Origin: Candidatus Magasanikbacteria bacterium RIFOXYD2_FULL_41_14
GTDB lineage: Bacteria > Patescibacteriota > Patescibacteriia > Magasanikbacterales > GWA2-37-8
Assembly (NCBI GenBank): GCA_001784475.1
Contig: MFRE01000022.1
Span: 1 to 44,233 of the forward strand
Direction: 5' to 3'
Length of the DNA stretch: 44,233 bases
This document shows, piece by piece, positions 5,274 to 29,114 of the stretch. The notes beneath the pieces are model-generated. The model did not search any database, was not told the origin of the DNA, and was given only the letters and a program-made list of their open reading frames with translations. Positions within the stretch are counted from its first letter, which is position 1. The number at the start of each line of letters is the position of its first letter. Both the position numbers and the translations under genes were made by a program.

Positions 5274-5881
5274 AAATGACTAGTGATGTTCGCGGGATTT
5301 CTATTTTAGAAGTGTTAGTCGCCATTGCGATATTTTTAATGGTGTCGGCGGGAACGATGGAAATTTTTATGTGGGGGTTTCGGGGGCGCGATATCGTATG
5401 GGAACAATTGTCTACACAAAACGAAGGAAGGAAAATTGTTCAAGATTTTGTTAATCAATTAAGGCGCGCGGGACAGTCAGCGGTTGGTGGCTATGCGATT
5501 GAATCAGCTGACAATCAACAAATTGTTTTTTATTCAAATATAGATATGGAAGCGTGGCGCGAACGGCTAAGGTATTTTTTGGTGGGGACGACTTTGAAAG
5601 TTGGTATAACGCGCGCGACGGGTACGCCAGTTTCTTACAATTTAGAGGATGAAGTTGTTACTGAAATTGTGCATGATGTGGCTAATACTACCACGCCGTT
5701 GTTTTATTACTATGATGAGAATTATACGGGCGTAACTAATACAACGATGTCCGCGCCGATAGATACTACCGAAGTGCGATTGGTCGGTATAAAATTATTA
5801 TTAGAAGAAAAGCCGAATGTGGCGCCGGCGCCGTTTGCGATTGAGACCAAAGTTTCCATACGAAACCTTAAAACTAATTAA
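5270..5881 (+). CDS. Minor prepilin (PilW/PilV-like)
   Basis: This 203-residue protein starts in the ATGA overlap with the previous stop, which indicates translational coupling. The leader ends in RG, followed by ISILEVLVAIAIFLMVSAG, a prepilin cleavage site and N-terminal helix with the conserved Glu at +5. The following globular part is short and beta-rich, as in PilW/PilJ-type minor pseudopilins. It probably belongs to the priming complex of a type IV pilus together with its neighbours. No pilus ATPase or platform gene lies in the window. Confidence 0.85.
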   Translation: MKMTSDVRGISILEVLVAIAIFLMVSAGTMEIFMWGFRGRDIVWEQLSTQNEGRKIVQDFVNQLRRAGQSAVGGYAIESADNQQIVFYSNIDMEAWRERLRYFLVGTTLKVGITRATGTPVSYNLEDEVVTEIVHDVANTTTPLFYYYDENYTGVTNTTMSAPIDTTEVRLVGIKLLLEEKPNVAPAPFAIETKVSIRNLKTN

Positions 5882-5994
5882 AAATGTAAAAATCAAAATG
5901 GAAAATTATTGTGTTCGCTTCGCTCACGGATTTTAAAAATTTTAAATTTTACATTGTCATTTTTCATTTTGATATTTGATTTTTACATTAGGCG
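5881..5994. mobile_element. Short inverted-repeat element, copy A (4HB/IVS family)
   Basis: The left end AATGTAAAAATCAAAATGG and the right end CATTTTGATATTTGATTTTTACATT are inverted repeats. They match the ends of the four-helix-bundle unit at 7383-7829. The interior holds GTGTTCGCTTCGCTCAC, which also occurs inside the 23S copy at 28530-28646. No gene is present. Confidence 0.75.
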
Positions 5995-6004
5995 CAAGCA
6001 AAGT

Positions 6005-8823: not shown

Positions 8824-10218
8824 ATGTCAAAATTACATAAAACAATTTCACCACTGTTGCTTATAAGCGGTATTTTTGCGCTTTTAATCACTGCCGGTTT
8901 TGGCTGTAAAGGCATGACTACAGCTGAAAAACAGCTGACCCAGCCGATTAAATTAGAGTATTGGACGATTTTTGATGATGTGGATGCTTTGCGTGCTAAT
9001 ATCAATAATTATAAAATTTCACGACCATATTTAACAGTAAATGTTCGTCAGTTAAGTGCTGATGAATTTTATCCGCGTTTGATTGAGGCCTTGGCCGAGG
9101 ACAAAGGGCCAGATATAATTTCCATTCGTAATCGCTGGCTCAAAGAATACGAGAGCAAATTAGCGCCGATGCCGGCTACTGCCGGTGATACTTTGGTGAC
9201 GGTTACCAAAACCCAATTAGGCACTAACACCACAGTTACACCCGTTAGTCGTTCTTTGCCGACTATTGGCCAATTGGACAGCGAATATGTCAAGGCAGTT
9301 AAGCAAGATGTGGTGTTGAATAATAAAATTTATGGCCTGCCTTTATCTTTAGATACTTTGGCGGTCTATTATAATAAAGATTTGTTAGATCGCGCGGGTA
9401 TTGCCCAACCACCGAAAAATTGGGTGGAGTTTCAAGCTGATGTTAAGAAAATTACCAAATACGATAGTCGTACCGGACAAGTGACGCAAGCGGGCGCGGC
9501 CTTGGGAAGTGGTAAAAATGTGGCTGGTGTGGATGATATTTTACAAGTAATTTTTGCTCAAAGCAAAGTGCCTTTTGTTAATGCTAATGGGCAGGCGGTA
9601 TTTGCCGGAGGTAATGGAAAAGATCAAAGCGCGGCGACCAATCTGGTAAATTTTTATACTGACTTTGCCAATCCCAGTCGTGATACTTATACTTGGAATA
9701 ACCAAATGGGGGCTTCGTTGGATGAGTTTGTGAGTGGCAAGGTAGGTTTTTTAATCGGGTATAGTTATCATCATTCTTTAATTAAAGCGCGCGCTCCGCA
9801 ATTAAATTTTGGTGTACTGCCTTTGTTTCAATTGGATCCAGACAATCCAGTCAATGCCGCTAACTATTGGGTAAGCGCTGTTACTGCTAAATCTAAAAAT
9901 CAAAACGCGGCCTGGAGTTTAATTGATTATTTAACTCACTCCAAAGCGACCAAAGATTATTTAGATGCCACCGGTCGGCCGTCGGCTTTGCGCGTTTATT
10001 TATCCGCTCAAAAAGAAAATTCAGCACTTTTGCCATTTGTCAGTCAGGTTTTGGTAGCGCAAAGTTGGTATCATGGTCGTAATTATGACGTTGCCTTAAA
10101 AGCGGTAAGTGATATGGTGGATAGTTGGATTATTTTGCCGCAGAAGGCGGTTGGCGTTAATGATTATCGGCAGAATTTATTAAATCAAACGGCCGCCAAA
10201 ATTAATCAAACGTTGTAG
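8824..10218 (+). CDS. Extracellular solute-binding lipoprotein (sugar ABC type)
   Basis: This 464-residue protein has an N-terminal hydrophobic stretch ending in a lipobox-like ITAGFGC, so Cys28 is the probable lipidated residue. The following body fits the family-1 solute-binding proteins (MalE/UgpB-type): 'LEYWTIFDDVDALRANI' near the N-terminus, 'KIYGLPLSLDTLAVYYNKDLLDRAGI', and a later 'AANYWVSAVTAKSKNQNAAWSLIDYL'. It would capture a sugar or oligosaccharide at the cell surface. No ABC permease or ATPase gene lies beside it, so the partner is elsewhere or the protein has another role. Confidence 0.85.
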   Translation: MSKLHKTISPLLLISGIFALLITAGFGCKGMTTAEKQLTQPIKLEYWTIFDDVDALRANINNYKISRPYLTVNVRQLSADEFYPRLIEALAEDKGPDIISIRNRWLKEYESKLAPMPATAGDTLVTVTKTQLGTNTTVTPVSRSLPTIGQLDSEYVKAVKQDVVLNNKIYGLPLSLDTLAVYYNKDLLDRAGIAQPPKNWVEFQADVKKITKYDSRTGQVTQAGAALGSGKNVAGVDDILQVIFAQSKVPFVNANGQAVFAGGNGKDQSAATNLVNFYTDFANPSRDTYTWNNQMGASLDEFVSGKVGFLIGYSYHHSLIKARAPQLNFGVLPLFQLDPDNPVNAANYWVSAVTAKSKNQNAAWSLIDYLTHSKATKDYLDATGRPSALRVYLSAQKENSALLPFVSQVLVAQSWYHGRNYDVALKAVSDMVDSWIILPQKAVGVNDYRQNLLNQTAAKINQTL

Positions 10219-10677
10219 TTGTCATTCCCGCGCAAGCGGGAATCCAGTGGTCGTCAATTGTCATCCCCGCGACAACGTGGATCCAGTAGCCGGCAATTAT
10301 CATCCCCGCGACAACGTGGATCCAGAAAAGTATGTATGTTAGAACGAAGATATTATGTATACATTTTAGCCAGTCAGAAAAATGGTACTCTATATATTGG
10401 TTTAACAAATAATTTAGTCAAAAGAATTTATCAGCATAAAAATAATTTAATTGCTGGGTTTACAAAAAAATATAATGTTCACCAGTTGGTATACTATGAA
10501 GAATATGATAATATAAATATAGCCATAAGTCGTGAAAAACAAATGAAAAAATGGGAAAGAAAATGGAAGTTAGAGTTAATAGAAAAAGATAATCTATTGT
10601 GGCGAGATTTGTATAAAGAATTGAATCCGATATATTAATTTAAAACTGGATTCCCGCTTGCGCGGGAATGACAAGAC
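10216..10677 (+). mobile_element. Palindrome-bounded unit carrying a GIY-YIG gene
   Basis: Three palindromes of the type TGTCATYCCCGC...GGATCCAG lie at 10220-10246, 10259-10286 and 10299-10325, and an inverted copy (CTGGATTCCCGC...GGGAATGACA) lies at 10646-10673. Between them is one GIY-YIG gene. The outer arrangement is the same as in the short gene-less elements between the pilin genes. Confidence 0.7.
10336..10638 (+). CDS. GIY-YIG domain nuclease
   Basis: This 100-residue protein is a single GIY-YIG domain: YYVYILASQ, then GTLYIGLTNNLVKRIYQHK with the conserved Arg, a central YYEEYDNINIAISREKQMKKW with the likely metal-binding Glu, and a basic C-terminus. I chose the ATG at 10336 because the residues upstream in the ORF track are only translated palindrome. 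Orphan proteins of this kind (often misnamed UvrC-like) are common in CPR genomes. Being enclosed by palindromes that recur without a gene suggests a role in their mobility, but this is inference. Confidence 0.85.
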   Translation: MLERRYYVYILASQKNGTLYIGLTNNLVKRIYQHKNNLIAGFTKKYNVHQLVYYEEYDNINIAISREKQMKKWERKWKLELIEKDNLLWRDLYKELNPIY

Positions 10678-10683
10678 AAAATT

Positions 10684-11604
10684 ATGCAAAATAAATTAAA
10701 AATATTAAGTGTTGTCGCCTTTGCCTTTGCCTTGGTTGGGTTTATTTTAGTGCCGGCATCGGCGGCACGGGCGACTGGGAACTGTTTGTGCGTGGACGAT
10801 TTGTCAACCGCAACAGATTTAGCAACTTATAACATGTTAAGCGCGCCAGTGTGTGAAGAGGCGGCGAATGAACCTAGTTGTGTTTCTACTGTATGTAGTA
10901 GCGTAGCAGGAACATTTTATGCCACTGACGAAGAGTGCGCCACCGCTTTGAGTGCTTGGGTGGTAAGCCGAGATAATTTAGCCACATCTTTTGCCGGGGC
11001 AACGTCTGTTGGGGAAAATGGCACTTGTTTTTGTTCGGCTGCTTTTCCGCAAGAAAAACAATTGACCGGGCTTGATAGTATTAGTGATTCTCAAAGTGCT
11101 TGTATCCCCGATGTTGCCGGTGAAGCTGCCTGTCAGGGTGTTTGCAATGATTCTAAATATCCCGGCCATAACTATAAATTTTTTACTGATACCGCTGACG
11201 GCGGTTTAAACAAATGTGAAATCGCCCAAAATGAATGGGAAAAGCAGTTGGAGTCGCTTAAAACTTCGGCCGGAAGCGTGCGTGCGAGCCAAAGCCGATT
11301 TATTCCCGATTGTTTACTCGCTGATATTTTAATGCCGGAATGCCGTGATATTAGTATTTTTGTAATGCTGGGCATTAATATCGCCCGTTATTTGTTTGCG
11401 ATTGTGGGCGCGCTGGCTTTGTTGTTTTTTATCTATGGCGGTTTTATCTTAATTTTGTCGCAAGGCAATCCGGAAAAAGTTAAAAAAGGAACCGGCTCTA
11501 TCCTTTCCGCTTTGATTGGCTTGGCCGTGGTGTTCGCCGCGTATGTGTTGGTGAACTTCTTGGGCGAGGCCGTGGGGATTAGTAGCGGGTTGAAATTATT
11601 ATAG
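10684..11604 (+). CDS. T4SS-pilin-like membrane protein, Cys-rich ectodomain (pilin 1)
   Basis: The 306-residue protein has a signal peptide (about residues 7-28, ending ARA), then about 200 residues with roughly 18 cysteines, and two C-terminal membrane helices (about 235-258 and 272-295). Between these helices is the family motif FIYGGFILILSQGNPEKVKK. The helical hairpin with a basic GNxEKVxKA loop is the VirB2/TrbC-like T4SS-pilin pattern common in Patescibacteria. The Cys-rich part would be disulphide-bonded outside the cell. It is the first of twelve paralogues between here and 21971. No VirB4, VirB6 or VirD4 gene is seen nearby. Confidence 0.8.
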   Translation: MQNKLKILSVVAFAFALVGFILVPASAARATGNCLCVDDLSTATDLATYNMLSAPVCEEAANEPSCVSTVCSSVAGTFYATDEECATALSAWVVSRDNLATSFAGATSVGENGTCFCSAAFPQEKQLTGLDSISDSQSACIPDVAGEAACQGVCNDSKYPGHNYKFFTDTADGGLNKCEIAQNEWEKQLESLKTSAGSVRASQSRFIPDCLLADILMPECRDISIFVMLGINIARYLFAIVGALALLFFIYGGFILILSQGNPEKVKKGTGSILSALIGLAVVFAAYVLVNFLGEAVGISSGLKLL

Positions 11605-11657
11605 GTTTAACAGCATTTAAGAAAATTGTGATTAAAAAACAAAATATTAGATAGTTT

Positions 11658-12671
11658 ATGTTTTTGAATAAGGATAATTTTGTTAGAAAAAAAAGTCGCA
11701 ATAAATTGTTGGTAGTAGCAATTAGTTTGTTGGTATGTTTTGTTAATGTAAACTTTGTTTCGGCGTCAACTGAAAATTACATTTTGGAGCATATTGATGC
11801 CAGGTTTCATCAGTATGATAACCCTGCGTCCGCTAGCGTTAATAAACCAAAATGTTCCACGGAAAATTTTTGTTATTGCAAGCTAAATTTTCCGGAAGTT
11901 TCCCTAGGTTATGATCTTGGCACTTGGATATCACGCTCTCGTTTTTTTGTTGGGGTTTTTAAAACCGACGCGTGGCCATTGTATGAAATCAGAATGATAT
12001 CGGCAGATTATGGTGGAAAAAATGTTGAAAAGTTATATGGTTCTAAATTGACAGTAAAAGAAGGTGAGTGTTTTATGCAGGACCAGTTAACATTTGTTGA
12101 TGGAGACAGAGATTATGAGATGAATCCGATTTTGCCAGAGGACATTACTTGTGAATATATGCTCGCCGACGGCTTTGGCTGTTGTTGTGCTAATAATACC
12201 GACGGGTCGGTGGAGTGCACCCAAACCGCGAAAGACCAAACCGACTGCACTTTGCATTGTGCTAATCCAACCGATACCGCTTATCCGGATGAGCCAAATT
12301 GTTCCGCGCGCAATCGCAAAGCCTATGTTTCCACATCCACCGTTGATATTGATTTCACTAGTATTAAAGCCGAGATGTTAAAACAACTAAACCCTTTGTC
12401 TTGGTTGGCTAAAAAAGCGGGTGGCGAGACGGCCACCGGCCAAATAAATAATTTTATTGGTGTGGCCTTAAAGTTCTTTATGTACGCCATTGGTTCGCTC
12501 TTGTTATTGTTCTATGTTTATGCCGGATTTTTGTGGATGACCGCTATGGGCAATGCGGAAAAAATCACCAAAGCCAAAACGATAATGTTCTGGGCCACAT
12601 TATCAATTGTGGTGCAACTGTTTGCCTATGCTTTGGTGCAGAGCGTGCTTAATTTATTACAAAATGGATAG
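11658..12671 (+). CDS. T4SS-pilin-like membrane protein (pilin 2)
   Basis: This is 337 residues with a signal peptide (about 15-36, ending VSA), a unique N-terminal region to about residue 168, and then a Cys-rich cassette (GCCCANNTDGSVEC onward). The C-terminal hairpin has the motif FYVYAGFLWMTAMGNAEKIT. From the GCCCANN motif to the stop it is almost identical to pilin 3, while the N-terminal halves are unrelated by eye. This points to recent duplication or gene conversion with a replaced ectodomain. No ribosome-binding site is evident. Confidence 0.8.
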   Translation: MFLNKDNFVRKKSRNKLLVVAISLLVCFVNVNFVSASTENYILEHIDARFHQYDNPASASVNKPKCSTENFCYCKLNFPEVSLGYDLGTWISRSRFFVGVFKTDAWPLYEIRMISADYGGKNVEKLYGSKLTVKEGECFMQDQLTFVDGDRDYEMNPILPEDITCEYMLADGFGCCCANNTDGSVECTQTAKDQTDCTLHCANPTDTAYPDEPNCSARNRKAYVSTSTVDIDFTSIKAEMLKQLNPLSWLAKKAGGETATGQINNFIGVALKFFMYAIGSLLLLFYVYAGFLWMTAMGNAEKITKAKTIMFWATLSIVVQLFAYALVQSVLNLLQNG

Positions 12672-12737
12672 TTTGGTCTGGTTGCTTAATTTTTAGTTAG
12701 TAAGTCATTGCAGGTTAAATGTGGTACATTGCTATAT

Positions 12738-13694
12738 ATGAAAAAAATTGTTTTAATTTTAGTGGGATTGGCAACATTTTTAGCTGTGCCCGGGATGGTC
12801 GCCGCCAGTAGTTATACTTCGGAAGATATGTATCTAAATTCTTTGTGGGAAGCAGATGGCACCGCTGCAAATATTGGGAACAATAAGACACTATGCGTTG
12901 AGACTAGTTTTTGTATTTGTCATGTGGCTTTTGATTTTAGCGCGTTTAGATCTACTCAAAAATATACCGGAAAATTTTTTGACGGGGCAAAACTCTATTC
13001 TCTCCACAATGAGTTTAATTTTTTGGATACTAATGGTGACGAAAGCATTGGCAACCCTTATGTTAGTGCTAGTTTAAAAATAAATGATAGCGGAAAAGAA
13101 TGTTTAATAAATTTTGAGGATATTCCTTGGCCTGCTAAATATGATAATTTTGTAAATTGGCCGACTATAGATTGTCATTATAATACCGCCAACGGCTATG
13201 GCTGTTGTTGTGCTAATAATACCGACGGGTCGGTGGAGTGCACCCAAACCGTGAAAGACAAAACCGACTGCACTTTGCATTGTGCTAATCCAACCGATAC
13301 CGCTTATCCGGATGAGCCAAATTGTTCCGCGCGCAATCGCAAAGCCTATGTTTCCACATCCACCGTTGATATTGACCTTGAAAGCGTAAGAGCCGAAGCC
13401 GCCAAGCAATTAAACCCTTTGTCTTGGTTGGCTAAAAAAGCGGGTGGCGAGACGGCCACCGGCCAAATTAATAATTTTATTGGTGTGGCCTTAAAGTTCT
13501 TTATGTACGCCATTGGCTCGCTCTTGTTATTGTTCTATGTTTATGCCGGATTTTTGTGGATGACCGCTATGGGCAATGCGGAAAAAATCACCAAAGCCAA
13601 AACGATAATGTTTTGGTGCACCTTGTCTATCGTCGTCCAGCTGTTTGCCTATGCTTTGGTGCAGAGCGTGCTTAATTTATTACAAAATGGATAG
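12738..13694 (+). CDS. T4SS-pilin-like membrane protein (pilin 3)
   Basis: The ATG at 12738 is preferred to 12708 because it gives the compact signal peptide MKKIVLILVGLATFLAVPGM (318 residues in total). The N-terminal ectodomain (to about residue 150) differs from pilin 2. The Cys cassette and the two-helix pilin hairpin are nearly the same, with only short differences such as DLESVRAEAAKQ for DFTSIKAEMLKQ. It probably forms or decorates the same surface fibre with a different exposed domain. Confidence 0.8.
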   Translation: MKKIVLILVGLATFLAVPGMVAASSYTSEDMYLNSLWEADGTAANIGNNKTLCVETSFCICHVAFDFSAFRSTQKYTGKFFDGAKLYSLHNEFNFLDTNGDESIGNPYVSASLKINDSGKECLINFEDIPWPAKYDNFVNWPTIDCHYNTANGYGCCCANNTDGSVECTQTVKDKTDCTLHCANPTDTAYPDEPNCSARNRKAYVSTSTVDIDLESVRAEAAKQLNPLSWLAKKAGGETATGQINNFIGVALKFFMYAIGSLLLLFYVYAGFLWMTAMGNAEKITKAKTIMFWCTLSIVVQLFAYALVQSVLNLLQNG

Positions 13695-13728
13695 TTTGAT
13701 TAGATGACTAAATTTTAGTAGTTTGTGT

Positions 13729-14517
13729 ATGATTAAAAAAATGAAAATAAAAATGTTATTTACTGCCACGATAGTTTTTATGGTCGGCCTATTTTTATTA
13801 CCAACGGCGGTTTTGGCTGGTGGTGCTTGTTTGTGTCGTGGACAAATTGGGTTAAATTGGTTGGGTGAGGTGGTTGTTCCCACAGAACAATTGAATGCTA
13901 TTTGTACTGATTATACCGATAGTGTTTGTACCATAATTGATTTTCCAATTCCAAGTGAATACGCGAAAGATAGCGCTGAATGCGACCTATTACCATTGGG
14001 TACCACGGATGAGCTTTTTGCGAAATATGAAGTTCCCAGCAGTGTGACCATGCTTCTTGACGTGGACGTTTCATTTGAGGCTACTTGCCGGTGGGTAGAA
14101 TCAGCAAATGATGGTACTTTATCTCCTGGAATGATTGGCGGGCCCGACTTAAATGGAGTAATTTCGGAAAATATGGAAGCGGCTGGATTAGAAAAAATCA
14201 CCCCGACTGTTCCGGTTAGTAAAAATGGCTGTCCGGGCGGTTATACCTGTCTCACTAACCCATTGGAAAATAAGAAAGCAGACATTCCTTTTATTATTGG
14301 CACGGTTATTAAAAGCGCTATGGGTTTGGCGGGCGCGCTCGCGCTTTTTATGGTAATTTGGGGGGCGCAGGGATGGCTCTTGGCAGCTGGGAACCCGGAA
14401 AAAATTAAAGAGGGTAGTAAAACCATTATCTGGGCAATAGTGGGTCTGTTGGTTTTGTTTATGGCATACCTAGTGCTGGCAATTGTTCTAAATACACTTA
14501 CCACCGGCGTTGTTTAA
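13729..14517 (+). CDS. T4SS-pilin-like membrane protein (pilin 4)
   Basis: Starting at the ATG at 13729 (the track start 13723 is TTG) the product has 262 residues. A signal peptide ends near LPTAVLAGG. A smaller Cys-containing ectodomain follows, and then two helices around WGAQGWLLAAGNPEKIKEG. This keeps the glycine-asparagine loop and basic patch of the pilin family. It is the fourth of the collinear Cys-rich paralogues and the most divergent of them. An extended -10 at 14587 and a palindrome pair separate it from pilin 5. Confidence 0.75.
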   Translation: MIKKMKIKMLFTATIVFMVGLFLLPTAVLAGGACLCRGQIGLNWLGEVVVPTEQLNAICTDYTDSVCTIIDFPIPSEYAKDSAECDLLPLGTTDELFAKYEVPSSVTMLLDVDVSFEATCRWVESANDGTLSPGMIGGPDLNGVISENMEAAGLEKITPTVPVSKNGCPGGYTCLTNPLENKKADIPFIIGTVIKSAMGLAGALALFMVIWGAQGWLLAAGNPEKIKEGSKTIIWAIVGLLVLFMAYLVLAIVLNTLTTGVV

Positions 14518-14586
14518 CACTAAAAATTAGTTAAAATCGGCATAATCTTAAAATTCCCAAAAGCCCTTTATTTTTTCCGCGATTTG

Positions 14587-14595
14587 TGCTATACT
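14587..14595 (+). promoter_or_regulatory. Extended -10 upstream of pilin 5
   Basis: TGC-TATACT forms an extended -10 about 140 bases before the pilin 5 start. The -35 region is weak. The transcript would carry a palindrome pair (14614-14688) in its leader. Confidence 0.4.
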
Positions 14596-14613
14596 ATTTT
14601 ATAGGTTTATCAC

Positions 14614-14688
14614 TGTCATCCCCGCATAAGCGGGGATCCAGGCAAACAACTGTAAACCTCGGCATTCCCGCTTTCGCGGGAATGACAA
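14614..14688. repeat. Paired dRS3-like palindromes
   Basis: TGTCATCCCCGC...GGGGATCCAG and an inverted CATTCCCGC...GGGAATGACA enclose a 25-base core. The layout matches the gene-less relatives of the GIY-YIG unit. Confidence 0.8.
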
Positions 14689-14734
14689 TAATAAATAAAT
14701 CAAATATGTTGATTCTGCGAAAGGGGGTGAAACT

Positions 14735-15142
14735 ATGAATAAATTGTTTTCCGGATTAATTTTGAGCGTGATGATGTTGGGTTTGGTGGCGGTCTTAGCT
14801 CCGACCACGCCGGCTCACGCCATTATTGCTGATGAAACACCAATAACTACCGATGATTTGGGGGTTGTATACGGTTCTTATACTGGTTTAGGTTCGCGCG
14901 ATGTGCGCGATACTGTCGCCTCAATAATTAGGGTTGCGCTCGGACTACTCGGCATTGTCGCCGTGGTAATTATCATAATTGGTGGTTTTACCTGGATGAC
15001 TGCTGGTGGCAACGACGAAAAAGTTGGAGAAGCCAAGAAATGGATTTTCTCCGGCGTGATTGGTCTTGCCATTATTTTGTCCGCCTACGCCTTGGCCAAC
15101 TACGTTATTGCTCAGTTGGTAACTGCTACCTCAAATACTTAG
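14735..15142 (+). CDS. Minimal T4SS-pilin (pilin 5)
   Basis: This 135-residue protein is the closest to a minimal VirB2-type pilin. It has a signal peptide (cleavage near TTPAHA), a short linker (about residues 32-52), one helix, the loop IIGGFTWMTAGGNDEKVGEAK and a second helix. It has no Cys-rich domain. The ribosome-binding site AAAGGGGGTG before the ATG is the strongest of the array, so it may be the major subunit. This expression idea is inference. Confidence 0.82.
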   Translation: MNKLFSGLILSVMMLGLVAVLAPTTPAHAIIADETPITTDDLGVVYGSYTGLGSRDVRDTVASIIRVALGLLGIVAVVIIIIGGFTWMTAGGNDEKVGEAKKWIFSGVIGLAIILSAYALANYVIAQLVTATSNT

Positions 15143-15185
15143 TAATATTTATCTGTCAGATGGGTTCTATTTTGAAAAAAATGGA

Positions 15186-15230
15186 TGGGCGCGCTTGTTC
15201 AGCTGAAAAGCCATGGAAACAGGCGCGCCC
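15186..15230. repeat. GGGCGCGC hairpin
   Basis: GGGCGCGCTTGTT and AAACAGGCGCGCCC form a strong stem between pilin 5 and pilin 6. It has no T-run, so it is not a typical terminator. Confidence 0.5.
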
Positions 15231-15274
15231 CCTTCTGGCGGTAAAACCAAATGTCATTCTGGTCAAAACGAAGG

Positions 15275-15353
15275 TGTCATCCCCATGACAATGGGGATCC
15301 AGTCGTAAACATACAGTATCAAACCATGGATTCCCGCTGTTGCGGGAATGACA
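15275..15353. repeat. Paired dRS3-like palindromes
   Basis: TGTCATCCCC...GGGGATCCAG, a core TCGTAAACATACAGTATCAA, then TGGATTCCCGC...GGGAATGACA. It is nearly identical to the unit at 16520-16598, which indicates recent copying. Confidence 0.85.
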
Positions 15354-15372
15354 CATCCCGAGTTTAAAAGAA

Positions 15373-15819
15373 ATGATACTTTCTAACATTTATATGTTTT
15401 GGAAAAAATTCTTCTCAAATATCGCAATATTTTTGGCAATTTTTTCAGTTGGAGTACTGCCGGCTTTTACTGTGGCAGTAGCCGCTCCGCCTGATCCTAA
15501 AGCCACTAATTATGGTATTAATACTGTTCAAAAGGCCGCCGGTTTACCAACTGATGTGGCCGGGCAAACGAGTATCCCCGGTTTAATTGGTGTAATTGTC
15601 GGTTTGGCGCTATCGCTCGTGGCGGTAGTGTTTTTTGTTTTGATTTTGTATTCCGGCGCGGTGTGGATGACAGCGATGGGCAATAGCGAGCGCGTAACTA
15701 AGGCCAAAACAACCTTGGAAACAGCGGCGATTGGGCTTGTGATTGTTTTAGCCGCTTATGCGATTGCCACTTTTGTGTTTAGTACTTTAGCGGGTGGTGC
15801 GTCCGCGGAGGGGGGGTAG
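15373..15819 (+). CDS. T4SS-pilin, frame ends at a G7 tract (pilin 6)
   Basis: The 148-residue product has a signal sequence (about 10-35), a linker, and the two helices with LYSGAVWMTAMGNSERVTKA between them. The reading frame ends in GGASAEGG* exactly after a run of seven G (15810-15816). With one G fewer the frame would continue through 59 more codons into a Cys-containing tail like that of pilin 8. The current state therefore encodes a tailless pilin. This may be phase variation, a fixed frameshift or an assembly error. Confidence 0.8.
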   Translation: MILSNIYMFWKKFFSNIAIFLAIFSVGVLPAFTVAVAAPPDPKATNYGINTVQKAAGLPTDVAGQTSIPGLIGVIVGLALSLVAVVFFVLILYSGAVWMTAMGNSERVTKAKTTLETAAIGLVIVLAAYAIATFVFSTLAGGASAEGG

Positions 15820-15997
15820 TTTTGACTTGAAGTGTAGCGATGTATATGGGGACAGAGGTGAGAGAGGTTTTTGTGTTAGTAATATGAGTGAGTGTACATC
15901 ATCTGCCCTAGACGCAGGTACTCTACTTAAAGTTCGGCCTGGAGAATGTTTAAAAAAGGACAAACCAATTTGTTGCACCATTGATAATAATTATTAA
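15820..15997 (+). pseudogene. Out-of-frame Cys-rich tail of pilin 6
   Basis: Read in the frame after the G tract, this stretch gives GSFDLKCSDVYGDRGERG, then CVSNMSEC and KKDKPICCTIDNNY*. The cysteine spacing and the terminal CC pair resemble the tail of pilin 8 (..GINCCK). It has no start codon or ribosome-binding site of its own that looks convincing, so it is most likely a tail that can be joined to pilin 6 by a change in the G run. Confidence 0.6.
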
Positions 15998-16030
15998 CAA
16001 ATCAAATTTTAAGATAATTGGTATGGAATC

Positions 16031-16113
16031 GTCATTCCCGTGAAAACGGGAATCCAGTCGCAATAAGTATTTTACTAAAAAACTCTGGATCCCCGATCAA
16101 GTCGGGGATGACA
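16031..16113. repeat. Paired dRS3-like palindromes
   Basis: GTCATTCCCGTG...CGGGAATCCAG and CTGGATCCCCGA...GGGGATGACA enclose a core of about 30 bases between pilin 6 and pilin 7. Confidence 0.8.
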
Positions 16114-16132
16114 GGTAAATGTAAAATTAAAT

Positions 16133-16504
16133 ATGAAAAAAACTTTTTTAATTTCTATAATGATGGTGGCATTGTTAATGCCAGTGTTGGGAGTAGTGGC
16201 GGCACAGGCTTTGGTTCTTTCAAATTCCGCTACTAAATTGGAGGATGTGGGCAAATTAACTAAAATGGAGAAGAGCTTAAGTTTTGGTATTGGCAACGTT
16301 GGCAATATGGTGCTCGCGCTTGTTGGTACAATATTTTTTGGCCTGACTGTTTATGCCGGTATCCGTTGGATGACCGCGCAAGGCAATGATGAACATATTA
16401 AAAAAGCCCAAAATACTTTAATCGCGGCCGTGGTAGGGCTAATAATTACAATGATGGCCTACGCGATTACGGCGTTTGTTACCAGTCGGGTGGGGGCATT
16501 ATAA
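16133..16504 (+). CDS. Minimal T4SS-pilin (pilin 7)
   Basis: This is 123 residues: signal peptide (to about VAAQA), a short linker, then the two membrane helices with VYAGIRWMTAQGNDEHIKKA between them and a very short C-terminus (VTSRVGAL). The helix-loop-helix is closest to that of pilin 8 (VYAGIRWMTAQG shared), suggesting they are sister genes. It is a plausible structural subunit. Confidence 0.8.
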   Translation: MKKTFLISIMMVALLMPVLGVVAAQALVLSNSATKLEDVGKLTKMEKSLSFGIGNVGNMVLALVGTIFFGLTVYAGIRWMTAQGNDEHIKKAQNTLIAAVVGLIITMMAYAITAFVTSRVGAL

Positions 16505-16519
16505 AAAAAAGCGGGCAAC

Positions 16520-16667
16520 TGTCATCCCTATGACAACGGGGATCCAGTCGCAAACATACAGTGTCAAACTCTGGATTCCCGCTTACACGGGAATGACACT
16601 ACGAAAATCCGGCGTCGTGGCGGGAATGACACTACAAATTGTCATCCCCGTGACAACGGGGATCCAG
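16520..16667. repeat. Cluster of dRS3-like palindromes
   Basis: A full pair (16520-16598) whose core matches that at 15275-15353 is followed by a partial arm (16607-16632) and a single palindrome (16640-16667). The region holds nothing else. Confidence 0.8.
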
Positions 16668-16691
16668 TAATATAGGTTTTACTAAAAAGTT

Positions 16692-17228
16692 ATGAACAAA
16701 TTTTTAAAAAATATTTTTGCTGGTAGTATTATAATAGTCGGTTTATTTTCATTATTTTTTAGCGCGCCGGCTTGGGCCGCGCCCGGCTTAAATGAGGCGG
16801 GTGGATATTTGGATACCTTGGGGGGCGGCGCCGGTTTGGAAGGCGAAATAACGATTTCTACCGGCAATGTTATTAATACTTTTTTGGCGGCCGTGGGCAC
16901 GATATTTTTTATTTTAACAATTTACGCCGGTATCCGTTGGATGACGGCCCAAGGCGCCGATGAGAAAATAACCAAGGCCAAAGATACTTTGCAAGCCGCT
17001 TTAATCGGACTCGCGATAATTTTAATGGCTTACGCGATTACGGCGTTTGTGACCGGAAGGTTGAGCCGTTCAAATATGCCGAATAATCAAGGCAGTAACC
17101 CGATTGATTCATCGTTGGAATGTACCAGCGCCGCTGTAGGTGGCCAGTGTCAAAATGGTTGTTTGGAGATTGGGAAAAAAATGATAGGGTCTTGTGATGA
17201 TTTAGGTGGAATAAATTGTTGCAAATAA
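16692..17228 (+). CDS. T4SS-pilin with Cys-rich C-terminal tail (pilin 8)
   Basis: This 178-residue protein has a signal peptide (ending near APAWAAPG), a Gly-rich linker, two helices around IYAGIRWMTAQGADEKITKA, and then a roughly 48-residue C-terminal tail with six cysteines ending in INCCK. The tail would lie on the outer face and form disulphides. It is the in-frame counterpart of the out-of-frame tail after pilin 6. Pilin 9 starts 11 bases later, so the two are probably co-transcribed. Confidence 0.8.
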   Translation: MNKFLKNIFAGSIIIVGLFSLFFSAPAWAAPGLNEAGGYLDTLGGGAGLEGEITISTGNVINTFLAAVGTIFFILTIYAGIRWMTAQGADEKITKAKDTLQAALIGLAIILMAYAITAFVTGRLSRSNMPNNQGSNPIDSSLECTSAAVGGQCQNGCLEIGKKMIGSCDDLGGINCCK

Positions 17229-17239
17229 TTTTATTATTT

Positions 17240-17749
17240 ATGAAAAAATTTCTTGTAAGCATATCTGTAGGTATTTTATTGTTAGTACCAACTATAGCGA
17301 CTTTAGCAGCGCCGGATATATTAGGTGAGGATGGTGCCGGGGGTAATCTGTTGGGGGGGATAGCGGAAAATGCCGGTTATAGCCCAAATGATACGTCTAG
17401 CACTGCTTTGTCAGCTAAAGTTGGGCAAATTGTTACTATTGCTTTATCGCTCGTGGGCACAATATTTTTTGCCTTAACAGTATATGCCGGATTTTTATGG
17501 ATGACTGCCAGTGGCAATGACGAGAAAGTTAAAAAAGCCACGGATATTTTAAAAGCCGCTTTAATCGGTCTCATATTATCTTTGGCCGCCTTTAGCATTA
17601 GTATATTTGTAACTTCAAGAATAGTGGGATATACAGTCGCGCCCGCGCCGGCCGTCGGCGCGCCTGCTTCTGCCGGTACGCCCACAACCGGGTTTTGGAA
17701 TGGATTTGCCCAAGCGGCGAGCGGCTATTGGGATATTTTGACAAGATAA
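17240..17749 (+). CDS. T4SS-pilin with Pro/Ala-rich tail (pilin 9)
   Basis: I chose the ATG at 17240 (MKKFLVSISVGILLLVP) because it opens a normal signal peptide; the track start at 17216 overlaps the previous gene. The product has 169 residues. Helices flank VYAGFLWMTASGNDEKVKKA, and the C-terminal tail is rich in Ala, Pro and Gly (VAPAPAVGAPASAGTP) without cysteines. Such a tail may be a flexible or cell-wall-spanning segment. Confidence 0.8.
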   Translation: MKKFLVSISVGILLLVPTIATLAAPDILGEDGAGGNLLGGIAENAGYSPNDTSSTALSAKVGQIVTIALSLVGTIFFALTVYAGFLWMTASGNDEKVKKATDILKAALIGLILSLAAFSISIFVTSRIVGYTVAPAPAVGAPASAGTPTTGFWNGFAQAASGYWDILTR

Positions 17750-17760
17750 TAATTATTTTT

Positions 17761-18231
17761 ATGAAAAATCAAAAGTTATTAGTATTTGGCATGGTGATAA
17801 TAGTCGCCTTAGTTGGCTTAAATATTTTTTCCGCGCGCGCCGCAAATGTGAGTGAAGAAATTGGCGGGCAATTAAGCGCAGCTGGCGCTGGGAATGGCGT
17901 GGACCTTGGCACTTACACTGACCCGCGGATGATCGCCGCCAATATAATTAAGATTGCCTTGGGATTTATTGGTATAATTTTTGTGGTTTTAATGACTTAT
18001 GCCGGTTTTTTGTGGATGACAGCGGGTGGTAAAGATGAACAAATTGAAAAATCAAAGAGTTTGTTATTTCAGTCCGTAATTGGCCTTATCATTATTTTGA
18101 GTGCCTATTCTATAACCATCTTAGCGGTTAAATTGGCCAAAGCAGAAAGGACCACTAGCCCCAGTGCCATCATTTATATTGAACAAATCCAAAATGGCCG
18201 GTCTTGCGGAACTTCAGATAGCTGTGAATAA
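17761..18231 (+). CDS. Minimal T4SS-pilin (pilin 10)
   Basis: The ATG at 17761 gives a 156-residue protein with signal peptide MKNQKLLVFGMVIIVALVGL and a cleavage site near SARAA. The pilin hairpin has TYAGFLWMTAGGKDEQIEKS as its loop. The short C-terminus carries two cysteines (SCGTSDSCE). It starts 11 bases after pilin 9 and ends 3 bases before the glycosyltransferase, so pilins 8-10 and that enzyme look like one transcription unit. Confidence 0.8.
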   Translation: MKNQKLLVFGMVIIVALVGLNIFSARAANVSEEIGGQLSAAGAGNGVDLGTYTDPRMIAANIIKIALGFIGIIFVVLMTYAGFLWMTAGGKDEQIEKSKSLLFQSVIGLIIILSAYSITILAVKLAKAERTTSPSAIIYIEQIQNGRSCGTSDSCE

Positions 18232-18234
18232 TAG

Positions 18235-19569
18235 ATGAAAACAGGAATTTTTTATCTTCTTTGTGGCGGTGGACACCTGGCGGCGTCTAAAGCCATTGTC
18301 GCTGAATGCGGTCAAAATTTTCCGGGCGAAAGCGTGGAAATTTTTGAAATAAAAAGTTCCAATCGGTTGGTTGGTTGGTTAATTGACGGCGGTTACACTG
18401 TCGCGACAAATTATCTACCTTTGGTTTGGAAATTTTTATATTGGATTTACACTCGTCGGCCCATAATCGCCACGACCGCTTGGATTTTCGGTCGTTTTTT
18501 TTATCGCGATATTAAAAAATTAATTATTGACGGTAAATTTGATAAAATCGTGTCTGCTCACTTTTTTTTAACGCCGGTAATGGTTGAAATTGTGGCAAAA
18601 TTAAATTTGAAGATTCCGATTTTTTGTTTAGTAACCGATCCTTTCACCGTTCCACCTTATTGGTTTTTAAAAAAAGAGGTTAATTATGTTGTATTTTCGG
18701 CGCGGGCGCGTGATTTTGGAGCGCGAGCCGGAATTGCAGACGACAAAATAAAAATTTTTAACCCCTTGCTTAATCCGGCATTTGTTGCTTCGGCGGTAAG
18801 TGTTTCGGCTAGCCGTGTTTCTTTGGGTTTAGAGAAATTCGATAAGATAGTGCTAGTCGCGGGCGGAGGCAATGGTTTGCCGCAGGGCATTAAAATTGTG
18901 CGGGCGTTGTGTGAAGAGTTCGCCACCTGTCATTCCAGTGCGCCCGAACGAAGTGACAAGTACTCTTGGGGTAAAAACGGGAATCCGGTCGTTAATCACC
19001 AAACGCTGGATCCCCGCTGTCGCGGGGATGACAAAACGCGCGCGAAGGACAAAGTGCGCGGAGACGACAAACCAAGTATAAAAATTATCGTTGTCTGCGG
19101 GCGTGATAAAAATTTTTATAATCAAGTTAAAAAAATACAAAAAAAATACCCGGCCATTGCACAGGTATTTGGTTTTGTTAATTTAGCGGAAATTATGCCG
19201 GCGACAGATGTTGTCGTTGGTAAAGCCGGACCGGCGGTAGTTTTTGAGAGTTTACTCCTTAAAAAACCATTAGTTTTAAATTCATATATTTGGCAACAGG
19301 AACAGGGGAATATGGAATTTGTGGTAAAAAATAAAGTGGGATATTACGAACCGAAGCCAAGTAAATTGGCGAGTCGTGTTTTAGAAATTTTGTTTGATGA
19401 TAAAAAAATTCTGGAATTAAAAGACAATATTGATAAACTTAAATTAAAAAACGGCGTGGCCGAGGTAACGCGTTATATATTAACAGAGAAATATAATTTG
19501 GGGTGCCCAACGGGAATTGAACCCGTATTGTCGGTTCCACAAACCGACGTAATAACCATTATACCATAG
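18235..19569 (+). CDS. GT28-like glycosyltransferase (MurG/MGDG-synthase fold)
   Basis: This 444-residue protein begins YLLCGGGHLAASKAI, the glycine-rich acceptor-side motif of MurG- and monogalactosyldiacylglycerol-synthase-like enzymes. The C-terminal half carries KIVLVAGGGNGLPQGI and the donor-binding ATDVVVGKAGPAVVFESLLL region, so a UDP-sugar-dependent transfer to a lipid or cell-wall precursor is likely. About 45 residues between CEEFA and SIKIIVVCGRDK are encoded by a dRS3-like palindrome pair inserted in frame. The last roughly 24 residues are encoded opposite tRNA-His, so the natural C-terminus may be shorter or recently extended. Location next to the pilins suggests surface modification, but this is inference. 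Confidence 0.8.
   Translation: MKTGIFYLLCGGGHLAASKAIVAECGQNFPGESVEIFEIKSSNRLVGWLIDGGYTVATNYLPLVWKFLYWIYTRRPIIATTAWIFGRFFYRDIKKLIIDGKFDKIVSAHFFLTPVMVEIVAKLNLKIPIFCLVTDPFTVPPYWFLKKEVNYVVFSARARDFGARAGIADDKIKIFNPLLNPAFVASAVSVSASRVSLGLEKFDKIVLVAGGGNGLPQGIKIVRALCEEFATCHSSAPERSDKYSWGKNGNPVVNHQTLDPRCRGDDKTRAKDKVRGDDKPSIKIIVVCGRDKNFYNQVKKIQKKYPAIAQVFGFVNLAEIMPATDVVVGKAGPAVVFESLLLKKPLVLNSYIWQQEQGNMEFVVKNKVGYYEPKPSKLASRVLEILFDDKKILELKDNIDKLKLKNGVAEVTRYILTEKYNLGCPTGIEPVLSVPQTDVITIIP
18928..19034. repeat. Palindrome pair inserted in frame in the glycosyltransferase
   Basis: TGTCATTCC...GGGAATCCGGTC and CTGGATCCCCGC...GGGGATGACA match the intergenic palindrome pairs. The inserted length keeps the reading frame open, so the protein gains a loop between two strands of the C-terminal domain. 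Confidence 0.85.
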
Positions 19570-19574
19570 GCACC
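19499..19574 (-). tRNA. tRNA-His(GTG)
   Basis: The acceptor GTGCCTA/TGGGCAC, the extra 5' G typical of tRNA-His, the anticodon loop TTGTGGA (GTG) and the T-arm ACGGGTTCAATTCCCGT are all present. CCA appears to be encoded, unlike in the other tRNAs of the window. It overlaps the 3' end of the convergent glycosyltransferase gene. Confidence 0.93.
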
Positions 19575-19625
19575 ATATGCCCGCGTGAGGCGGGAATTTC
19601 TAAAACACCGATTAAATACCGAGTG

Positions 19626-19654
19626 ATTATATCAAAATAAATCAAAATAATCAA
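19626..19654 (-). promoter_or_regulatory. Promoter for tRNA-His
   Basis: On the minus strand TTGATT, 17 bases, TATAAT. It lies between tRNA-Arg(TCT) and tRNA-His and points to tRNA-His. Confidence 0.7.
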
Positions 19655-19671
19655 GATGCGGTTTTAATTTG

Positions 19672-19743
19672 TCTCCTCAGCAGGAATCGAACCTGCATCT
19701 CAGCCTTAGAAGGGCCGCGTTTTATCCATTAAACTATGAAGAG
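19672..19743 (-). tRNA. tRNA-Arg(TCT)
   Basis: The acceptor CTCTTCA/TGAGGAG, anticodon stem-loop CGGCC-CTTCTAA-GGCTG (TCT) and T-arm GCAGGTTCGATTCCTGC fold well. CCA is not encoded. The first base pair is C-G instead of the usual G-C. Confidence 0.9.
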
Positions 19744-19748
19744 CCATT

Positions 19749-19781
19749 GTCCGCCCAAGGCGGGTCCGCCTGGGGCGGAAA
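19749..19781. repeat. CCGCC/GGCGG double palindrome
   Basis: TCCGCC...GGCGGGTCCGCC...GGCGGA. On the minus strand it is flanked by ATAGTTT and AATGG, which also occur, joined together, in the D-arm of tRNA-Arg(TCT) just downstream. Related copies are at 42096 and 43235. Confidence 0.75.
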
Positions 19782-19875
19782 CTATCCCGATTTTATTTCG
19801 CAATAAAATCGAGGATCCGCGATTCCGCGAGGCGGAATCGGGACAGGGTCGCTAGTATTGCGATTTTATACTATT

Positions 19876-19904
19876 TTGAAGAAAAAATCAAGTTGTGGTA
19901 TAAT
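19876..19904 (+). promoter_or_regulatory. Promoter of pilin 11
   Basis: TTGAAG, 17 bases, TATAAT, with an extended -10 TGG directly before it. It is about 100 bases upstream of the pilin 11 start, with a palindrome pair in the leader. Confidence 0.75.
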
Positions 19905-19911
19905 AATCATA

Positions 19912-19985
19912 TGTCATTCCCGGTGTATGCGGGAATCCAGAAATTTAACTACACGACTGGATCCCCGATCAAGTTGGGGATGACA
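19912..19985. repeat. Paired dRS3-like palindromes
   Basis: TGTCATTCCCGG...GGGAATCCAG and CTGGATCCCCGA...GGGGATGACA in the leader of pilin 11. Confidence 0.8.
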
Positions 19986-20002
19986 ATAAAAATATATTTT
20001 TT

Positions 20003-21037
20003 ATGAAACTAAAAATTTTTATCGCAACTTTTGTAGTTGTTTTGGTGTTGGCGCCGACGGGCGCGTATTTGGGCAATATTGCCTTCGCGCAAGAGCCAAA
20101 GCGCGACGCCACTCTTTATAATTTGGACGTGACCGGTCCGGGCGCGGGATATACCAAGACAGTTACTGTGATGAGTATTGCCCAGGCCGGATTGGGCGGG
20201 GCACTGGCCATGATTAGTATTGCCATTTTGCTGCTGCTTATTTATGGTGGTACGCGTTGGATGATCGCCCGTGGCAATGCCGAAGATGTTACCAAAGCCA
20301 AAGATATTATTGAACAAGCCCTAATTGGCCTGGTGATTATTTTGGGCGCTTGGGGTTTGGCGAGTTTTGTGTTTGGGAGGTTGCAAGGAAAAGTTAGTAA
20401 TACTGCGACTGATATTATAGGTGGCGCACAAGACGCCATTATCGGTCTGTGTGTTTGCCCAGATAATTCTTGCGAAAATCTGTATCAATTTAATTTGACA
20501 CCAACAGCGCCAGGTGAATTGGATGCGCCTGGGTTTTGTCAGGCATATTGTAATGGCGATTCAGATTATAAAATTATTAGTCCGGCGACTGGACAGGCGG
20601 ACTGTAGCGAATTTATCAGCAAACTTCCTCCAACTCCAACGCCCGATTTTCAGCTTGGGGCCTGTGTTTGTCAAAATGGTAGTTGTTTAGCTACGGCTGA
20701 AGACGATTGCTCCAGTAGTTGTACTGATTCAAGCAGTGCCGTGAATGATTGGCAGGCCGGTTTATGCCAAAATGTTTGCATTTCTGGAGTTTATGAGGCG
20801 GGTTGTGATCGTTGTCCGAACGGAGTGTGCCCACCACCATCAGATATTCCACCACTACCACTTCCGGATTTATATGATGTATGTTACTGCGGTTTGGGCG
20901 ATGGTGATTTAAAAAATGATACTTGCCACAGCGAAGTTGTTGTTAATGAGATAAATTATACCGCGATTTGGTGCGACAATTTGTGTGGAGATTTTTCAGA
21001 CAACTTTGCTCCCAATCAAGCACATGGGTGTCCGTGA
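20003..21037 (+). CDS. T4SS-pilin with long Cys-rich C-terminal ectodomain (pilin 11)
   Basis: The 344-residue protein has a signal peptide (ending near NIAFAQ), a linker, the pilin hairpin with the loop IYGGTRWMIARGNAEDVTKA (about residues 80-100), then about 200 residues with more than 20 cysteines and repeated CVCxNxxC patterns. In contrast to pilins 1-4 the ectodomain is C-terminal. The helix region is nearly identical to pilin 12 at DNA level. It has its own promoter (19876-19904). Confidence 0.8.
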   Translation: MKLKIFIATFVVVLVLAPTGAYLGNIAFAQEPKRDATLYNLDVTGPGAGYTKTVTVMSIAQAGLGGALAMISIAILLLLIYGGTRWMIARGNAEDVTKAKDIIEQALIGLVIILGAWGLASFVFGRLQGKVSNTATDIIGGAQDAIIGLCVCPDNSCENLYQFNLTPTAPGELDAPGFCQAYCNGDSDYKIISPATGQADCSEFISKLPPTPTPDFQLGACVCQNGSCLATAEDDCSSSCTDSSSAVNDWQAGLCQNVCISGVYEAGCDRCPNGVCPPPSDIPPLPLPDLYDVCYCGLGDGDLKNDTCHSEVVVNEINYTAIWCDNLCGDFSDNFAPNQAHGCP

Positions 21038-21095
21038 TAATCCTAAGGTAGTTAGTAAAGTTTTTGGTATTTATTTTTTTTGAAAAACCTTCTTT

Positions 21096-21971
21096 GTGAT
21101 AATAATGGTTTTGGTATTAGTAGTGGCTTACTTAGGTAATTATGGTTTTGCGCATGCCGCCGACTCAATTCTACACGGTTTAGACACGACTGGGCTGGGA
21201 GCCGGGTATAAGGAAGTAAGTGTAACGAACATTGTGAGTAATGGTTTGGGTGGGGCGCTGGCTTTAATTAGCATTGCCATCTTGCTGCTCCTTATTTACG
21301 GTGGTACGCGTTGGATGATCGCCCGTGGCAATGCCGAAGATGTTACCAAAGCCAAAGATATTATTGAACAAGCCCTAATTGGTCTCGTGATTATTTTGGG
21401 TGCTTGGGGTTTGGCGAGTTTTGTGTTTAATAGATTAAAAAAACAACCGATAAGCGAAGCGTTGCCAGAAATACCACACAGTATAGTTGTTGGAAATACT
21501 GACCCATCAATTGTTGGTATTTGTGTTTGTAGAACTACTAATGAATGTTCCGAAATTTTGAGCAGTGTTTATCCGGCTGATTTTGATCCTGCCACAGCCG
21601 ATGAAGCATCAGGCGATCCCAGACAGACATTTTGTGATTCAATCTGCGGGAGCGCGATAGGTATTGTGTATAATAACAATGTGAGCATGCCAAACTGTAT
21701 TGGATATTCAGTAAGTAACCTTAACCCTCAGCAGGAAACAGCGCCCGCAGTGCCACCGCCGCCGCCTCTTGAAACCATTGGCTCATGTCATTGCGATGCC
21801 GGTTTTGGGCCGTGTATTAATGTTGACCCAGTTGCTATATCTTTTGAGGACTCGGGTATAAAATGCTGGCTAGACTGTAGCTATAATGGAGGGGTAAGGT
21901 GGTATAATGGTAGAGAGATAAGCACAGGCGAGCACGCCCCCATTTACCATCCAGGTGAGAGCTGCCCTTAA
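21096..21971 (+). CDS. T4SS-pilin with Cys-rich C-terminal ectodomain (pilin 12)
   Basis: A TGA in frame at 21081 limits the start to GTG 21096 or ATG 21105. The 291-residue form has a slightly short signal peptide (VLVLVVAYLGNYGFAHAAD). The hairpin with IYGGTRWMIARGNAEDVTKA is almost identical to pilin 11, while the C-terminal ectodomain is different and has about 12 cysteines and a Pro-rich segment (PAVPPPPPLET). It may be expressed from the pilin 11 promoter. Confidence 0.78.
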   Translation: MIIMVLVLVVAYLGNYGFAHAADSILHGLDTTGLGAGYKEVSVTNIVSNGLGGALALISIAILLLLIYGGTRWMIARGNAEDVTKAKDIIEQALIGLVIILGAWGLASFVFNRLKKQPISEALPEIPHSIVVGNTDPSIVGICVCRTTNECSEILSSVYPADFDPATADEASGDPRQTFCDSICGSAIGIVYNNNVSMPNCIGYSVSNLNPQQETAPAVPPPPPLETIGSCHCDAGFGPCINVDPVAISFEDSGIKCWLDCSYNGGVRWYNGREISTGEHAPIYHPGESCP

Positions 21972-21990
21972 TGTAGTTGGATATTAGACA

Positions 21991-22019
21991 TTGACAAATT
22001 TTCAATTATTTGCTATCAT
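21991..22019 (+). promoter_or_regulatory. rpsO promoter
   Basis: TTGACA, 17 bases, TATCAT. This is one of the best -35/-10 pairs in the window and lies about 130 bases before rpsO. Confidence 0.82.
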
Positions 22020-22032
22020 TACCCCATTAATA

Positions 22033-22143
22033 ATTGGTTGTTTTGGGTGGAGAGATTGCCACGGGCTAAAAATCCCTCGCAATGACAGACCAAAACCAAC
22101 CCCGAACGGTTAGGAACATGCTCCGAAGCCGGCGGTAACTATT
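22033..22143 (+). promoter_or_regulatory. Structured rpsO leader with embedded repeat
   Basis: TTGGTTGTTTTGG pairs with CCAAAACCAACC to form an outer stem. The interior (22051-22087, GAGATTGCC...CTCGCAATGACAG) resembles another widespread bacterial palindrome type. The segment after it (CGAACGGTTAGGAACATGCTC) lies just before the start. S15 often represses its own mRNA through such leaders in other bacteria; whether this one does is inference. Confidence 0.5.
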
Positions 22144-28389: not shown

Positions 28390-28456
<67 letters not shown>

Positions 28457-28529
28457 AGTTTTCGCGCCGAAAATGTACCGGGGCTAAAATATGGTACCGA
28501 AGCTGCGAACTTCAGTGCGTGGCACTGAG

Positions 28530-28646
28530 AAATGTAAAAATAAAATATCAAAAATCAAAATTAAAGTGTTCGCTTCGCTCACCGATTAAATTCGGTCGCG
28601 TAGCGACTCCGCAATTTTCCATTTTGATATTTACATTTTGATTTTT
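28530..28646 (+). mobile_element. 23S intervening sequence, copy D of the 4HB/IVS family
   Basis: The ends AAATGTAAAAATAAAATATC and GATATTTACATTTTGATTTTT are inverted repeats like those of copies A-C. The interior shares GTGTTCGCTTCGCTCAC with copy A. It lies between the 23S segments GAAGCTGCGAAC and TTGGTAGAGGAACATTCC, i.e. at helix 45, a known intervening-sequence site in other bacteria. No protein is encoded. In known cases such inserts are cut out by RNase III without religation. Confidence 0.82.

Positions 28647-29083: not shown

Positions 29084-29114
<31 letters not shown>

Follow-up and report, generated by a model that had tools for sequence, protein, structure and literature searches.

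Twelve related pilus-type genes, g1-g12, form an array at 10684-21971 of the window, the 44,233-nucleotide contig C22, and 73 other loci repeat the row with its gene order kept, far beyond chance. The source organism is an uncultured, ultra-small Magasanikbacteria bacterium of class ABY1 with a genome of 1.095 Mb in 28 contigs, an estimated ~96% complete. Each array protein consists of an N-terminal hydrophobic signal and one hairpin of the T4SS_pilin family (PF18895), with or without an outer domain. Because the row recurs in the same order across the class, it suggests a multi-part surface device for cell contact rather than random gene expansion. With a probability of about 0.55, we read the locus as coding for the building blocks of a heteromeric VirB2-type pilus, or short pseudopilus, that belongs to the cell's own type IV secretion system (T4SS). 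The observations behind this reading are family membership, a secretion core elsewhere in the genome, conserved gene order, cysteine parity, faster divergence of the outer parts and gene linkage.

Both the order of the array and the identity of each position are conserved across ABY1. We lettered the genes in classes A to I along the array and sampled relatives as 13 stretches picked by pilin matches and 79 loci found via the class-D gene, scoring hairpins with a local profile (729 hairpin open reading frames, ORFs, in 92 loci). Best hits to g1-g12 follow the same order over the 73 other independent arrays, with 0.877 of informative pairs concordant against 0.500 +/- 0.019 in shuffles (maximum of 1000, 0.562). 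Most hairpins (531 of 606) resemble some hairpin of another genome more than any paralogue from their own array. The nearest hairpin in another genome belongs to the same class in 84% of cases, most clearly for classes A to D (91-97%) and more weakly for E, F and G (68-76%). Class A is present in 59 of 74 loci. Mean identity within class D is 70.5%, versus 45-50% for the other classes, in the 13 loci not chosen via D. PF18895 itself occurs in all 95 genomes searched (the source and its relatives), most with 8-18 copies. By sequence comparison, the array paralogues are positional orthologues across families and orders.

Profile searches support placing the array hairpins among T4SS/VirB2-type pilins. 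A first-pass annotation, made from the window's letters, had proposed twelve T4SS-pilin paralogues, and all twelve proteins do match PF18895 (E 4e-11 to 7e-5), eight of them above the Pfam cut-off. A stretch-wise search of the genome puts 11 of the 12 array hairpins above it, and four further PF18895 hairpins lie outside the array. The TrbC/VirB2 family (PF04956) matches 26 of 40 class-D orthologues (best E 2e-9); g5 itself scores 23.2 bits against a cut-off of 27.9. Nearly the whole NF045849 profile is matched by g11 (E 1e-6, 28.2 bits), below the curated cut-off of 40. The WMTAxGNxEK loop that the annotation took to be common to all members is found in g2, g3 and g5-g10, with variants in g1 (ILSQGNPEKVKKG), g4 (LLAAGNPEKIKEG) and g11 and g12 (MIARGNAEDVTKA). 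Paralogous hairpins mostly share 19-64% identity, the recent pairs g2/g3 and g11/g12 reaching 99% and 87%. Across the loci, a hydrophobic N-terminal segment precedes the hairpin in 565 of 597 pilins. In the array, all twelve N-termini read as Sec-type signals, and none carries a GFTLxE-type motif or class III leader.

Structure prediction returned hairpins. The AlphaFold2 (AF2) model of g5 is a clean two-helix hairpin (helices 57-89 and 94-132) with pLDDT of ~86-96 across residues 61-130; full-length g1 also gives a hairpin, but its outer domain is weakly modelled (mean pLDDT 65.7, pTM 0.35). Foldseek with the g5 model found no match at E 0.001 or better. Taken together, Foldseek and VIA-align listed generic hairpins only (such as ATP synthase subunit c and chemoreceptor coiled coils), a list that lacks VirB2 and excludes nothing. 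Searching the sequences of solved structures with the class-D profile gave no match.

The genes, all on the plus strand, differ in what is attached to the hairpin. Four carry a cysteine-rich outer domain between signal peptide and C-terminal hairpin: g1 (class A, 10684..11604; PF18895 E 4e-11) with 14 cysteines, g2 (class B, 11658..12671; E 7e-5) with 12, its duplicate g3 (class B, 12738..13694; E 2.5e-5), whose outer domain has diverged, also with 12, and g4 (class C, 13729..14517; E 9e-9) with 8. The candidate major subunit g5 (class D, 14735..15142; PF18895 E 5e-11, TrbC E 8e-5) is a bare hairpin, as is g7 (class F, 16133..16504; E 3e-7). Also bare in the source genome is g6 (class E, 15373..15819; E 9e-8), which is followed in another frame by a six-cysteine tail, read from the sequence at 15810..15997, that begins at a run of seven G (~15810-15816). 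This junction may be a frameshift, a slippage site or an assembly error; across loci, class E has a C-terminal tail with at least four cysteines in 40 of 78 genes. Further along come g8 (class F, 16692..17228; E 1e-5) with a six-cysteine C-terminal tail, g9 (class G, 17240..17749; E 3e-8) with a proline/alanine-rich tail and g10 (class H, 17761..18231; E 3.5e-5) with a short two-cysteine tail. At the tail position, g11 (class I, 20003..21037; E 1e-6) ends in a 22-cysteine domain with three CxC..C..CxxxC..C modules and g12 (class I, 21096..21971; E 9e-8) in a 12-cysteine domain with two. The starts of g3 (12738), g4 (13729) and g10 (17761) are the probable ones. This is the layout first described, out-of-frame g6 tail included, save that g10 had been listed without an extra domain. 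Across loci, N-terminal cysteine domains occur mainly in classes A, B and C and C-terminal ones mainly in E to I.

N- and C-terminal parts very probably both lie outside the cell and are disulfide-bonded, because cysteine counts are even at both ends. With ORFs at contig ends excluded, counts are even in 149 of 153 C-terminal outer parts that have cysteine and in 140 of 145 N-terminal parts with at least two. Another 35 N-terminal parts carry a single cysteine, perhaps a start-site or signal-peptide residue, and 561 of 597 hairpins have none. These sequences are related, not independent; because their counts span 2 to 52, shared descent alone explains the parity poorly. The outer parts also diverge faster. 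Identity between the source genome and a sister species is 53-73% for the hairpins but 26-46% for the outer parts (where at least 15 residues were alignable). The CxC..C..CxxxC..C spacing is common to g1, g2, g3, g11 and g12 (9 modules; shuffles mean 0.9, maximum 4). We do not claim a common origin of, or transfer between, N- and C-terminal modules: the N-terminal modules escape a profile built from the C-terminal ones, and among relatives the spacing is seldom seen (6 of 90 N-terminal, 2 of 107 C-terminal).

The genome encodes a T4SS core away from the array. The array was first described as lacking secretion machinery, and VirB4, VirB6 and VirD4 are indeed absent from the window; this is a property of the window only, because the genome-wide search for T4SS ATPases that the first-pass annotation proposed finds VirB4 and a VirD4-like protein on other contigs. 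A cluster on contig C4 holds VirB4 (NF045971, 354.7 bits; cut-off 325), PrgI/VirB3 (41.2 bits; Pfam cut-off 27), a weakly matching TrsD-like protein (33 of 200 bits) and a 1643-aa protein with six predicted helices within its first 304 residues, which may be an extended VirB6. Contig C2 encodes the VirD4-like coupling protein (TrwB_AAD_bind, 47.5 bits; cut-off 20.5). A VirB4-type ATPase (PF19044) is found in 88 of 95 genomes and PrgI in 52 of 57.

From these parts we infer a topology, a VirB4-driven assembly, a division of roles and a use in host contact. Sec would export each pilin, its signal peptide would be removed, and the mature protein would be a membrane hairpin of two helices, its Lys/Glu loop inside and both ends outside. 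VirB4, with PrgI/VirB3 and the large polytopic VirB6-like protein, would then draw out the hairpins and stack them. The likely main subunit would be g5, the bare hairpin of the most conserved class, D. The other classes would be specialised minor subunits at fixed places, bearing disulfide-bonded domains at the N-terminus (A, B, C) or the C-terminus (E to I), and these outer domains could bind another cell or its polymers.

Several points weigh against a T4SS pilus of this kind. Large outer domains may not fit a helical pilus body, and the TrbL/VirB6 family (PF04610) has no match in the source genome. virB4 and the array lie on different contigs, and hundreds of kilobases apart in complete relatives such as G036, so that a shared pilin-VirB4 machine rests on their co-occurrence. 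Three genomes (G005, G043, G076) have VirB4 with just 3-5 pilins and without the solute-binding protein (SBP) that heads most arrays; the T4SS kept there is seemingly independent of the array. Arrays also occur in assemblies with no VirB4 match (e.g. G055), perhaps from gaps. Lastly, structure prediction had been named at the outset as the test of the pilin assignment; it gives the hairpin, and comparison with solved structures cannot separate hairpin families.

The main competing explanation, which we regard as doubtful though worth keeping in view, is that the hairpin is a membrane anchor only. The array would then encode non-polymerising, tethered surface proteins such as adhesins or receptors, and the kinship with VirB2 would be ancestral. 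The separation of virB4 from the array suits this explanation, as does the same hairpin on giant surface-type proteins. On contig C19 (574-13826, minus strand), two adjacent surface-type proteins begin with a pilin hairpin, one of 687 aa with Big_5 domains and one of at least 3726 aa, its end meeting a run of N, with TIG, Big and Laminin_G domains. Relatives have hairpin-bearing open frames of 2200-5300 aa and similar pairs of long frames. Yet g5 and g7 are bare and would have nothing to anchor, and it is bare class D that is most conserved; class-specific hairpin sequences in fixed order would moreover be needless for an inert anchor.

Another hairpin fusion lies on contig C8 (8868-11101, minus strand), where the pilin hairpin precedes an M15/VanY-like motif pair, SHFSGDAMD and AWHFEY, recognised by eye; the fusion has no family match. 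It adjoins a DsbA-like gene, near recG and radA, and a second pair of DsbA-like and pilin-hairpin genes lies on contig C21 (6562-8818). The C8 protein is possibly a cell-wall hydrolase of the system.

Interchangeable paralogue cassettes that switch or recombine to vary the surface, as proposed for the VirB2 paralogues of Bartonella, are an unlikely explanation of the array. The recent duplicates do invite it. The last ~420 nucleotides of g2 and g3 are 97-100% identical except for one 75-nucleotide window (75%) and the end (87%), with ~60% identity upstream, and the hairpin DNA of g11 and g12 is 92-97% identical between flanks at ~65%. Such near-identical blocks beside strongly diverged outer parts are also what duplication or gene conversion would be expected to leave where outer parts diverge fast. 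That fast divergence in general and the seven-G run between g6 and its out-of-frame tail fit a variation system too, as do the palindromic repeats concentrated in the array, with 16 of the 18 half-sites of the window in 10200-22100, a density of 1.3 per kb versus 0.1 outside and 0-0.15 per kb in other stretches of the genome. Runs of at least seven G/C, however, show no noticeable excess in pilin genes (10 of 32), and we set poly-G phase variation aside. Positions are orthologous across families and orders, at 531 of 606 hairpins and a concordance of 0.877. The array had initially been pictured as a modular surface structure with exchangeable domains. A modular surface structure is a sensible picture, and the even cysteine counts are those expected of exposed domains; free exchange between positions is unsupported, since throughout the class every position retains an identity of its own.

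The array has a linked sugar-binding lipoprotein, a probable partner of the fibre. Its gene (8824..10218, plus strand; SBP_bac_1, PF01547 E 1e-21) encodes an orphan extracellular SBP of the sugar type with a lipobox-like AGFGC, and solved relatives are sugar-binding proteins. Of 74 loci, 59 have it at the head of the array; 11 loci place a pilin gene in front of it, which puts it inside the array. The protein is the sole SBP_bac_1 member in the source genome, and no cognate permease was found for it there: the two ABC permease genes lie in other cassettes, both of which, on our reading of the sequences, carry their own NMT1/Tau-type binding proteins. SBP is missing in 5 of 7 relatives with at most 5 pilins versus 8 of 88 others (Fisher P 4e-4), a test weakened by adjacency, since one deletion or assembly gap removes both.

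The linked SBP also raises the idea of a hetero-oligomeric uptake or transfer channel, in which the paralogues would line a T4SS conduit and SBP would pass host substrates to it; we consider this improbable. The orphan gene and its joint absence with the pilins agree with a channel, but a single deletion or assembly gap would also remove both, and there is no direct sign of uptake. SBP-fold proteins can also act as receptors or adhesins. Uptake via T4SS has been suggested for Saccharibacteria (PMC11665869, PMC12857230).

The heteromeric T4SS pilus can be drawn more fully, and here we are tentative. An ABY1 hetero-pilus would be a T4SS-driven fibre or ring of at least eight non-interchangeable, fixed-position pilins with fast-evolving, disulfide-bonded recognition modules at either end. 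Together with its dedicated sugar-binding lipoprotein, it would serve presumed epibionts as a host-contact or feeding device, and the giant surface proteins and M15-type peptidase that carry hairpins would join the machine.

Other features surround and interrupt the array. A glycosyltransferase gene (18235-19569) and two antisense tRNA genes (His, Arg) break it; tRNA-His (minus strand, 19499-19573) overlaps the 3' end of the glycosyltransferase ORF, whose final residues are for that reason probably non-coding. We rejected the glycosyltransferase as a component of the system, with weak matches in just 7 of 74 loci. The palindromic repeats, of the GTCATTCCCGCG...CGGGAATCCAG type, extend over 10217-19985, mostly in the gaps between g4 and g8 and around the glycosyltransferase gene, and some read in frame within ORFs (the glycosyltransferase, and a GIY-YIG ORF at 10219-10638). 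Directly upstream of galU and the array, three ORFs at 3426-7384 have N-termini like those of type IV pilus pseudopilins; a relative of the second one (5270-5881) turns up in 19 of the 74 array loci. Downstream, rpsO-NYN-pnp follows the array in 17 loci, which we take as shared synteny. Genes for 23S and 5S rRNA occupy 27223-31462, with no 16S within the window, and an ORF between them (30328-30855) resembles a LAGLIDADG homing endonuclease.

The closest known systems are other patescibacterial pilin arrays. Quinonero-Coronel et al. 2025 (PMC12102498) describe arrays of 2-11 VirB2-like pilins in Patescibacteria, suggested to aid adaptation to different hosts, and a six-pilin array of Southlakia epibionticum is stated in PMC12857230 to be essential. 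With 12 genes, the locus belongs with the former as that paper delimits them, by at least two tandem divergent VirB2-like genes and a VirB4 in a patescibacterial genome. It shares with them the phylum, the Pfam pilin family, tandem divergent paralogues and a monoderm conjugation-type T4SS in the genome. The association of ABY1 T4SS loci with comF, recG and radA given there fits as well: in the source genome comF adjoins virB4, and recG and radA adjoin the C8 pilin fusion. Relative to the arrays in that paper, ours differs in having 12 genes instead of 2-11, ordered orthologous positions, cysteine-rich domains at both ends of the proteins, a linked SBP and a location far from virB4; the paper's main text contains no account of such features.

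Array members resemble VirB2/TrbC pilins (PF04956) in their signal peptide, two hydrophobic helices and charged loop, and in having, as predicted, both ends outside as in VirB2. VirB2 pilins known so far are small, without large outer domains, and usually one per system, whereas the array offers many per genome, with large outer domains among them. The Mbov_0395 family pilin-like protein of integrative and conjugative elements (NF045849) has a model of 80 residues with no outer domain, unlike g11, which carries one. Tandem VirB2 paralogues are also found in Bartonella Trw, as cited in PMC12102498 and PMC12857230; antigenic variation is proposed there, whereas our positions are orthologous across the whole class. 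Positional orthology, disulfide-bonded outer parts at both ends and a linked SBP appear to be new: the literature searched, with supplements, preprints and subscription papers outside it, holds no description of them.

The ordered pilin classes provide named, testable parts: class D as the likely main subunit, the minor subunits, whose outer domains are at known ends, and the linked SBP. If the pilus reading is true, it would point to surface molecules with which these uncultured bacteria might recognise partners. The design recalls modular type IV pilins such as PilB of Streptococcus sanguinis (PMC8179133), in which a functional domain is grafted on a pilin module for display on the fibre. 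Fold and export are unrelated, type IV pilins having a class III leader and one N-terminal helix and the array proteins Sec signals and two-helix hairpins. Should the pilus reading hold, VirB2-type pili would be buildable from many different subunits, as type IV pili are.

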